Source: Comamonas sp. lk (GTDB taxonomy: Bacteria > Pseudomonadota > Gammaproteobacteria > Burkholderiales > Burkholderiaceae_C). From it: a stretch of DNA of 64,000 bases. The notes below the pieces were generated by a model. That model was given only the letters and a program-made list of their open reading frames with translations, searched no databases and was not told the origin of the DNA. The stretch is from positions 27,379 through 91,378 of the forward strand of contig CAMBFO010000001.1 in assembly GCA_945865675.1 (NCBI GenBank), written 5' to 3'. Numbering within the stretch: position 1 is the first letter of the stretch; each line of letters begins with the position of its first letter. Shown one piece after another: positions 55,717 to 62,545 of this stretch. Both the position numbers and the translations under genes were made by a program.

Positions 55717-55722
55717 TAGAAT
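55717..55722 (+). promoter_or_regulatory. Candidate -10 box for metK
   Basis: TAGAAT, six bases upstream of the structured leader. The region 17 bases before (TCAAAA) is a poor -35. If used, transcription would start close to the first stem of the leader. Confidence 0.35.
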
Positions 55723-55728
55723 GAAAGG

Positions 55729-55853
55729 GTCGCCGAGTTAAACGAGCAACTTGCAGGGCGACGACACGATCGACCAGCCTTGCCGGCCAATTGTGCCTTG
55801 TCCTTGGGGACAAATCTGCTAAAGCGTTCGCCAGCTCCCGGGATTGGCAACGC
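55729..55853 (+). promoter_or_regulatory. Candidate SAM-II-like riboswitch in the metK leader
   Basis: P1 is GTCGCC/GGCGAC (55729-55734 with 55757-55762). Its loop holds GAGTTAAACG...CTTGCAG, close to the loop of SAM-II riboswitches as I know them (GAUUUAA...UUGCA). Loop bases AACG and AGCA (55741-55748) pair with CGTT (55825-55828) and TGCT (55817-55820), leaving AAAG bulged within GCTAAAGCG. This is an H-type pseudoknot with an A-rich strand, as in SAM-II. The connecting loop is long and contains its own hairpin TTGTCC-TTGG-GGACAA (55798-55813). A downstream stem GCGTT-C-GCCA/TGGC-AACGC (55824-55833 with 55845-55853) competes for the same GCGTT. The downstream metK gene fits. Assignment is inference from pattern. 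Confidence 0.6.
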
Positions 55854-55884
55854 ATGTCAACCTCACATTTTTTGGAGAGCAACC

Positions 55885-57063
55885 ATGGCGAACGATTTTC
55901 TTTTTACCTCCGAGTCGGTGTCCGAAGGACATCCCGACAAAGTATCCGACCAGATTTCGGATGCGATTTTGGACGCGATTTTCAAGCAAGACCCCAAGTC
56001 CCGCGTCGCCGCGGAAACCCTGTGCAACACCGGTCTGGTGGTGCTAGCCGGCGAAATCACTACCAACGCGCATGTGGATTACATCCAGGTGGCACGCGAC
56101 ACCATCAAGCGCATCGGCTACGACAACACTGAATACGGTATTGACTACAAGGGCTGCGCCGTGCTGGTTGCCTACGACAAGCAATCCAATGACATCGCCC
56201 AAGGCGTGGACCACGCCAGTGACGACCACCTCAACACCGGCGCCGGTGACCAGGGCCTGATGTTTGGCTACGCCTGCAATGAAACACCCGAGCTGATGCC
56301 CGCGCCGATTTACTATGCTCACCGCCTGGTCGAACGCCAGGCCCAGTTGCGCAAAGACGGACGCCTGCCCTTTTTGCGCCCGGATGCCAAAAGCCAGGTG
56401 ACCATGCGCTATGTCAACGGCAAGCCCCATAGCATTGACACCGTCGTACTGTCCAGCCAGCACAGCCCTGAGATGAGTAATGGCACGACCATGAAGCAAG
56501 AATTCATCGACGCGGTGATCGAAGAAATCATCAAACCGGTCTTGCCCAAAGAATGGCTGAAAGACACCCGCTACCTGGTCAACCCCACCGGCCGCTTTGT
56601 GGTCGGCGGGCCGCAAGGCGACTGTGGCCTCACCGGACGCAAAATCATTGTGGACACCTACGGCGGCGCCTGCCCGCACGGCGGCGGTGCGTTCTCCGGC
56701 AAAGATCCCACCAAGGTGGACCGCTCCGCAGCCTACGCCGCGCGCTATGTGGCCAAGAACATTGTGGCGGCCGGTCTGGCCACGCAATGCCAGATTCAGG
56801 TGGCCTATGCCATTGGCGTGGCCAAGCCCATGAACGTTACCGTCTACACCGAAGGCACCGGTGTGATTTCTGACGAAAAAATCGCCGCCTTGGTCAGTGA
56901 ACATTTTGACCTGCGCCCCAAAGGCATCATCCAGATGCTAGACCTGCTACGCCCGATTTACGAGAAGACCGCGTCCTACGGCCACTTCGGCCGTGAAGAA
57001 CCCGAATTCACCTGGGAACGTACGGACAAAGCGAGCGCGCTGCGTGCAGCGGCAGGCTTGTAA
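55885..57063 (+). CDS. metK: S-adenosylmethionine synthetase
   Basis: Makes SAM from methionine and [36 protein letters not shown] (ATP-binding hexapeptide region), [21 protein letters not shown] and [24 protein letters not shown] (P-loop-like) are all present. I use the ATG at 55885, preceded by TTGGAGAGC; this gives 392 residues, and the longer frame runs back through the structured leader. Confidence 0.97.
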
Positions 57064-61337: not shown

Positions 61338-62545
61338 GGGCGACCTTTGTCAGGCGCTGCCCCGGGCTGCGGCACCCAGGCAAATCGCTGCCAGGCAATC
61401 GACTGGCGCTGGTCGGTATAGCTGACCCAGACCTGGCCATCGACCATGGCCATGGCCGGGTAGGAGTATTCGTGTCCGGGTGGCCCATTTTCTAAATCGA
61501 CCATGCTGCTCCATCGGCCTGCGTCCGCCGAGGACGCCATGCGCAGGCGGTCACGGCCGCTTTTTTGCGGGTTGTACACCAGCAGGTGCTGCCCGCCTGC
61601 CGTCAGCGTGGCGACGCTGGCATTGGGGTTATCCAGGGGCAAGTCTTGGGCGTCCGACCACTGCACGCCGCCATCGCGGGTCCGGGCCACGCGGATGCGA
61701 CCTGCGGGCCCGCTATCGCGCATCAAGGCGAGCCACTCGCGCCGGTCCAGTGCCAGCAAAGCCGGTTGCAGCATCTGGCCTTGGGTTGACATCGGCACCA
61801 TAGCGCGCAGCGCACCTTGCGCATCCAGGCGCAGGGCCACCGGGTATTTGCGCGCCAGTTCAAAGTAGGCTGGCAACACCAGACCGCCGTCGGCCAAGAG
61901 CAAAGGGGCGGTGCGCACCAGGTAGCTGGTATTCCAAAGCCAGGACAATGGCAACACCGCTACAGCGTCCCAGGCCCATGGCGCATCGGGCGTGGGTGCA
62001 GCCTGACGCAAATGCACCACCCGCCCTGCCGCCCAGCCACCTAAACCGGTGGCCACGACAAACAAATGCACTTGCCCCTGTCCATCCAGCCAGGCTACCG
62101 GATTGCCAAGCCGGCGGATGCCAAAGCCTAGCTGCGCGCCCATTTCCCAGCGGTCCACCACCATACGGGCGGGGGACCAGCTGCCGCTGGCACGGTCCAG
62201 CGCCGACATCGCGATCTGGACATTGGGCGCACTCTCGCGGTCGCCAGCAAACCAAAAAGCCAGCAGCGCCGAGGGATGCGCGGCCGGCATTGCGAGCAAG
62301 GCGCTGGCATGCGCGGCGGGCACGCCCTGGGGCATGGGGATATGGCCCTGCCCCGTACGCTCCCAACGTCCGCCCGCCAGCGCGGCTTGCCCTGGGCTTG
62401 GAGAAGCGTCCACCCCGTGCGCTGGGGCCATCTGGACGGCCTGCGCAGGCACCAGCTGCGCTCGCCGTCCGGCATCGACCAGACACAGCAGCGCGGCGAT
62501 GGCCAGCGCCAAAGCGGCGCGCAACAAGCGGGGGGGGAAACGCAT
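61334..62545 (-). CDS. Exported sialidase-like BNR-repeat protein
   Basis: A 403-residue beta-propeller protein of the BNR_2/exo-alpha-sialidase-like group. It has an N-terminal hydrophobic export or anchor segment (LLRAALALAIAALLCLVDA). Asp boxes are visible: TRDGGVQWSD (near 290) and SADAGRWSS (near 342). The C-terminal YSYPAMAMVDGQVWVSYTDQR is typical of the group. True sialidase activity is unproven; related proteins act on other sugars or are uncharacterised. It pairs with the membrane protein gene and faces an LPS-type glycosyl cluster. Confidence 0.82.
   Translation of the reverse strand: MRFPPRLLRAALALAIAALLCLVDAGRRAQLVPAQAVQMAPAHGVDASPSPGQAALAGGRWERTGQGHIPMPQGVPAAHASALLAMPAAHPSALLAFWFAGDRESAPNVQIAMSALDRASGSWSPARMVVDRWEMGAQLGFGIRRLGNPVAWLDGQGQVHLFVVATGLGGWAAGRVVHLRQAAPTPDAPWAWDAVAVLPLSWLWNTSYLVRTAPLLLADGGLVLPAYFELARKYPVALRLDAQGALRAMVPMSTQGQMLQPALLALDRREWLALMRDSGPAGRIRVARTRDGGVQWSDAQDLPLDNPNASVATLTAGGQHLLVYNPQKSGRDRLRMASSADAGRWSSMVDLENGPPGHEYSYPAMAMVDGQVWVSYTDQRQSIAWQRFAWVPQPGAAPDKGRP

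Follow-up and report, generated by a model that had tools for sequence, protein, structure and literature searches.

SAM-II riboswitches are already known in beta- and gamma-proteobacteria (PMC2258182, PMC2704228). Their SAM pocket is built from U10-U12 of loop L1, from U20, U21, G22 and C23, and from G42, C43, U44, A45, A46 and A47, with the triples U11-A45-U21 and U12-A46-U20; U44 reads the adenine and A47 the methionine end, A36/A37 of loop L3 dock on helix P1, and U10 is fully conserved in known members (PMC3764141). In SAM-V, the base equivalent to U10 hydrogen-bonds the equivalent of U44 and not SAM (PMC6061858). SAM-II riboswitches with long loops (RF01726) were described as Bacteroidetes and marine elements (PMC2864571), and tandem SAM-II systems have been published in which the first copy acts by terminator control and the second by ribosome-site control (PMC9481103). 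A metXZ RNA element of beta-proteobacteria was reported in 2014 as new and with an effector unknown, and in the same survey beta-proteobacterial metK was under no known methionine regulator and attempts to find one failed (Leyn 2014, PMC4239095). In the open-access literature searched, we found no SAM-II-type element described before metK of Burkholderiales. The metK leader analysed here lies in a 64,000-nucleotide stretch of the Comamonas sp. lk genome, referred to as the window, and the reading of this leader with the strongest support is a SAM-II-like riboswitch with an enlarged loop.

A SAM-II-like pseudoknot precedes metK

The metK-leader element, as read from the sequence, is an H-type pseudoknot whose whole aptamer spans 55729-55829 on the plus strand, as do all features given below. 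As the first-pass annotation had proposed, it lies ahead of the SAM synthetase gene: metK (55885-57063; 392 aa; TIGR01034, 586.9 bits; three Pfam S-AdoMet_synt domains) starts with an ATG at 55885, downstream of the pseudoknot. Helix P1 is formed by GUCGCC (55729-55734) and GGCGAC (55757-55762). L1 opens with GAGUUAAAC and its third strand GAGUUA (55735-55740) corresponds to G8, A9, U10 changed to G, U11, U12 and A13 of SAM-II (roles from PMC3764141 and PMC6061858). The 5' strands of the pseudoknot helix follow, namely GAGC of the outer helix P2a (55744-55747) and UUGCAG of P2b (55751-55756), in which UUGC corresponds to U20, U21, G22 and C23. Behind the 3' strand of P1 comes a 53-nt linker (55763-55815) with AAAU at its end, equivalent to an enlarged L3; it carries hairpin P3 (55765-55795), in which CACGAU (55765-55770) pairs with AUUGUG (55790-55795), and the perfect 6-bp hairpin P4, UUGUCC-UUGG-GGACAA (55798-55813). 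The 3' partner of the pseudoknot helix, CUGCUAAAGCGUUC (55816-55829), contains the P2b strand with the SAM pocket, CUGCUAAA (55816-55823; G42 to A47 of SAM-II are 55818-55823), and the P2a strand GUUC (55826-55829). The spacings of 3 nt from P2a to U20 and 2 nt from A47 to P2a are those of the SAM-II sequence 2QWY. The first-pass annotation had pointed out P1, a loop with UUGCA and a 3' pseudoknot strand; both P1 strands, the loop motifs GAGUUA and UUGCA, and the 3' strand UGCUAAAGCGUU are present in the window.

The element is widespread in Burkholderiales

In BLAST searches of 61 genomes, 30 yielded the leader: the one it comes from, 28 congeners and a single member of another family (L026); the same-genus copies sit immediately 5' of metK. 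A DNA pattern run on named genomes returned at least 118 stretches, from Comamonadaceae and Rhodocyclales among others; Rhodoferax, Variovorax, Curvibacter, Limnohabitans and Hydrogenophaga represent the former among the matches listed, and Zoogloea, Thauera, Azoarcus and Aromatoleum the latter. Most of the first 80 pattern matches lie 55-83 nt 5' of metK on the same strand. Stretches from sequences labelled Peptococcaceae (L102) and Rhodothermales (L115) had no metK at the right place and were discarded as chance matches. After parsing of all loci, 131 distinct leaders were obtained.

A covariance model built from the element, R1, in which only the P1 pairs are encoded, matched 118 of 300 sampled Burkholderiales genomes and 68 of 135 genera. 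The matches examined were mostly 5' of metK and included 43 metK leaders besides that of the window. Because class-wide matches were few (11 of 185 genomes, including the own genome and one of the same family), this form of the element is taken to be centred on Burkholderiales. R1 had a second match within the window, at 61880-61970 (17.3 bits), but the core is missing there and a gene on the opposite strand runs across it; we rejected this match as a false positive and therefore did not trust weak R1 matches alone.

Canonical relatives were also present. Of 94 genomes sampled from the class, 9 had matches to RF00521 (SAM_alpha) above its gathering threshold of 36 bits, and these matches together with weaker ones precede metZ/metY-like genes, metN, metF and metK, as named from translated open reading frames. 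R1 weakly recovered several RF00521 elements at the same coordinates, an overlap that we take as supporting only, because it is weak and a match of similar weakness in the window proved false. The own genome carries a compact SAM-II-like element 66 nt before metX (L060; G000:C141:3334-3410, minus strand; RF00521 26.3 bits, cut-off 36), which is of the canonical U10 type and is followed by a terminator-like hairpin and a T-run. This leader appears to be the metXZ element of PMC4239095, suggesting that the latter is a SAM-II relative; the metXZ element, with canonical U10 and a terminator, stands before metX or metZ, in contrast to the metK element.

SAM-II-type elements, often in tandem, were further noticed at loci L188-L190, L212-L213, L222, L229, L231, L235, L238 and L245 and at 1508-1668 of L026. 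In the tandems, a canonical GAUUUG copy comes first and a GAGUUA or GAUUUA copy second, and the gene downstream of the arrays encodes a MYDC/MFDC protein of about 100 aa, joined in several cases by a MATE-like transporter; the one small protein tested matched no Pfam family. Unlike the published tandem systems (PMC9481103), the window element is single. At L188 (1549-1726, plus strand), the model of the Burkholderia sRNA Bp2_287 (RF02424) matched the antisense of a canonical SAM-II leader with a sub-cut-off score of 30.1 bits, and RF02424 may thus describe the opposite strand of a riboswitch leader.

The SAM-II pocket is retained except for U10

Twelve of the 13 fully conserved pocket nucleotides of SAM-II (list from PMC3764141) are present in the window element: U11, U12, U20, U21, G22, C23, G42, C43, U44, A45, A46 and A47, and these are retained in the order-wide alignment A2 as well. 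The thirteenth, U10, is a G at 55737. Among the 43 metK leaders found by covariance model, L1 reads GAGUUA in 38 and GAUUUA, which keeps U10, in 5; GAGUUA occurs in 131 of the 131 pattern-parsed leaders, where the parse itself demanded GAGTT. By analogy with SAM-V, G may substitute for U10, because the equivalent base there contacts the U44 equivalent rather than SAM.

The first-pass annotation had assigned the leader to the SAM-II architecture, and the same topology and spacings, the 12 pocket nucleotides, covariation and the metK context all agree with it. The element shares with SAM-II (RF00521; 2QWY) the H-type pseudoknot with P1, the L1 third strand and P2a, the P2b pocket UUGC/GC-U-AA, the A-rich L3, nearly all pocket nucleotides, the spacing, and a methionine/SAM gene context (metK in most, and the metX copy in the own genome). 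It differs from SAM-II in the change of U10 to G in most members, in an L3 whose length often far exceeds that of the compact canonical form, and in the foot of P2b, where the paired bases are AG/CU, GG/CC and GA/UC. It also differs in how Rfam models respond to it. In a cmscan of the leader against all 4227 Rfam families at E<=10, as the first-pass annotation had advised, none of the SAM-II, SAM-V, SAM/SAH, SAM-I, SAM-III, SAM-IV, SAM-VI and SAH riboswitch models matched, and no riboswitch family matched the window element at gathering level. Compact metK leaders likewise had no Rfam SAM model match, and the relative in L026 scored 19.1 bits with RF00521, below the gathering threshold. With the pocket nearly intact, this suggests that the Rfam models miss the element because of one changed, otherwise fully conserved base and an often enlarged linker. 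Since it departs from RF00521 in both U10 and model score, the element is best called a SAM-II-type variant rather than a member of that family as defined. With SAM-V (RF01826) it has the SAM-II core fold in common but no Rfam match. It resembles RF01726 in concept, both being SAM-II cores with long loops, but comes from a different lineage; RF01726 matched none of 150 Pseudomonadota genomes and nothing in the window, while the control Bacteroides ihuae was matched.

The altered base could mean that an aptamer of SAM-II fold now recognises a different but related ligand, for instance SAH, decarboxylated SAM or methylthioadenosine, or that it distinguishes less strictly between SAM and SAH. The U10 equivalent in SAM-V bonds the base that reads adenine (PMC6061858), this very position is G in most metK leaders, and SAM-I offers a precedent of variant aptamers with new ligands, although the spermidine riboswitch was dropped as a SAM-II precedent, its variants belonging to SAM-I and not to SAM-II (PMC10853860). 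However, U11 and U21, which read the sulfonium through their O4 atoms, are unchanged, as are U44 and A47; G should be able to donate a hydrogen bond to U44 too, five metK leaders keep U10, and the downstream gene is the SAM synthetase gene. We therefore consider a changed ligand improbable.

The enlarged linker is variable and partly conserved

A loop enlargement of about 50 bases with an inner perfect hairpin, noted in the first-pass annotation, is confirmed as the 53-nt linker with its 6-bp P4, but it proved to be an insertion of variable length within L3, located after P1 and ahead of the A-rich segment, and not a defining feature. Linkers of metK leaders range from about 9 to 65 nt, and other genera of the same family have 9-12-nt forms in front of metK. 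Hairpins P3 and P4 of the long Comamonadaceae linkers together are 83.7% paired with 19 two-sided changes; P3 is 80.7% paired over 8 pairs with a constant 3' strand AUUGUGC, and P4 is 88.7% paired, 3 of its 5 pairs showing two-sided changes. RNAalifold predicted zero pairs from the linker alignment, though the named P3/P4 structure counts well. AUUGUGC (55790-55796 in the window) is constant in 47 of 47 aligned long Comamonadaceae-type linkers, which had been picked for containing TTGTG, and its partner strand varies through G-U pairs. On the reverse strand of a Rhodoferax contig (L105), a PfkB-family kinase gene is preceded by an element with a long linker and metK by a compact one (9-nt linker), the two elements lying at about 4475 and 5690.

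Conservation of the P3 strand AUUGUGC beyond the needs of pairing would suit a structured leader that senses no metabolite and is controlled through a protein or an sRNA, or serves simply as an mRNA-stability element. Such a leader seems very unlikely, given that the SAM-II pocket and topology are matched in detail and that canonical SAM-II copies precede other methionine genes in the same genome and class. We favour a SAM-sensing leader, and within the SAM-II type it is conceivable, if rather doubtful, that these elements form a separate subclass: G10 would change the affinity or specificity of the pocket, and the long L3 with its constant AUUGUGC strand would supply a second input, for instance a protein or a competing structure, by which SAM feedback on metK is adjusted.

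Covariation supports P1 and the SAM-II register of the pseudoknot

Two alignments were examined: A1, with 74 non-redundant leaders, and A2, with 43 rows, which holds metK leaders gathered across the order by covariance model together with the window. In A1, the pairs of P1 and the pseudoknot are 99.2% paired with 58 two-sided changes, which none of 500 shuffles reached, P1 alone is 99.5% paired, and pairing falls to 30-52% for every slid register. In A2, the same helices are 95.8% paired with 77 two-sided changes, again matched by none of 500 shuffles; the leaders share descent, and neither these changes nor the element counts are independent. The metK-leader alignment that had been suggested as a check thus revealed compensatory changes in P1 and in both halves of the pseudoknot helix across Burkholderiales. 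Two-sided changes affect 3 pairs of P1 in A1 and 5 in A2, and the 3' strands of P1 and P2a covary in both alignments.

The conserved pseudoknot pairing is GARC:GUUC plus UUGCAG:CUGC-U-AA. P2a varies as a unit with compensatory pairs (GAAC:GUUC, GAGC:GUUC, CGAC:GUCG), and the outer two pairs of P2b covary in A2 (CAG/CUG, CGG/CCG, CGA/UCG). The inner P2b, UUGC/GC-U-AA, is constant in A2, and its four invariant pairs give no covariation evidence because they never vary; GCUAAA is invariant among both the BLAST-found and the covariance-model leaders. In A1, the constancy of P2b is partly built in, because the pattern used for loci L061-L178 fixed CTTGCAGGG and CTGCTAAAGCGT, which make up much of the inner P2b. 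The free-energy fold of the single leader is not unusual (z = 0.24), which is uninformative because the structure is a pseudoknot, as expected. The H-type fold of the first-pass annotation is therefore real, but its eight-pair register, AACGAGCA with UGCU-AAAG-CGUU, is almost certainly wrong and was rejected for the SAM-II register: its strands can pair in the window and the leaders most similar to it (the whole register is present in 10 of 131, almost all of which resemble the window's form), but in A1 it has 57.6% paired cells and no two-sided change, equal to shuffles, and it would give pocket nucleotides G42, C43 and U44 other partners.

A predicted transcription start at P1 and two candidate output steps

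A TANNNT motif ends 3-9 nt, mostly 6-7 nt, 5' of P1 in 125 of 127 distinct leaders compared with 23 of 127 shuffled ones, and in the window it is the -10 element TAGAAT (55717-55722). A generic sigma-70 scan found no complete promoter. Because this box stands a few nucleotides ahead of P1 in nearly all leaders, transcription most likely starts at or next to 55729, so that the RNA would begin at P1.

Of 98 GUUC-type leaders, 89 have AACGC, the complement of GCGUU, downstream of P2a, against an expectation of about 9 from shuffling. In the window, AACGC closes a predicted anti-P2a hairpin, GCGUU-C-GCCA...UGGC-AACGC (55824-55853), that excludes P2a. A candidate anti-Shine-Dalgarno CUCC (55835-55838), weak in the window's own clade, is predicted to pair with the metK Shine-Dalgarno GGAG (55874-55877) as long as the aptamer occupies GCGUUC. 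In folding predictions for 88 leaders, the unpaired probability of the Shine-Dalgarno was 0.175 with GCGUUC held and 0.509 with the anti-P2a hairpin, against 0.35 for shuffled spacers. In the window's clade (L001-L005) it was 0.22-0.43 in the ON state versus 0.25 in the OFF state, and the two states are not clearly separated. A UCCCC...GGGGA-type terminator-like helix with a T-run behind it occurs in 21 of 23 Rhodocyclales-type leaders and in 0 of 23 shuffled ones. Shine-Dalgarno pairing and terminator-like helices would both fit an OFF switch; the output step stays a model, because the window's clade is ambiguous in folding and the leaders are phylogenetically dependent. Pairing of GCGUUCGC of the aptamer 3' strand with the metK start (AUGGCGAACG) is only suggestive: codons 2-3 of metK (GCG AAC; window 55885-55896) are 95% and 92% constant, and other codons are equally constant.

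Significance for SAM homeostasis in Burkholderiales

Taken as a whole, the metK leader is very probably a Burkholderiales-centred riboswitch of SAM-II type that would mediate feedback repression of metK. We infer that the ligand is SAM, that the switch is of the OFF type and that it acts through the outputs above, the output step being least clear for the window's clade. Transcription would begin at P1, and L1 would occupy, as a third strand, the major groove of the pseudoknot helix formed by P2b (UUGCAG:CUGC-U-AA) and P2a (GARC:GUUC), with SAM beside U11, U21, U44 and A47 as in SAM-II. One or two hairpins of the enlarged L3 would bulge from this core, 5' of the A-rich segment docking on P1. 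With SAM in place, GUUC would be engaged in P2a and the competing GCGUU...AACGC hairpin blocked; in Comamonadaceae-type leaders, metK would then be closed at its ribosome site, where (UUU)GGAG pairs with CUCC(AAA), and in Rhodocyclales-type leaders through the terminator-like helix. At low SAM, the GCGUU...AACGC hairpin would form and metK would be expressed.

The element offers a specific and testable answer to how metK is regulated in a large order, and it supplies a single aptamer core with naturally graded linker lengths, about 9 to 65 nt. Burkholderiales that carry it probably lower SAM production when SAM is plentiful.
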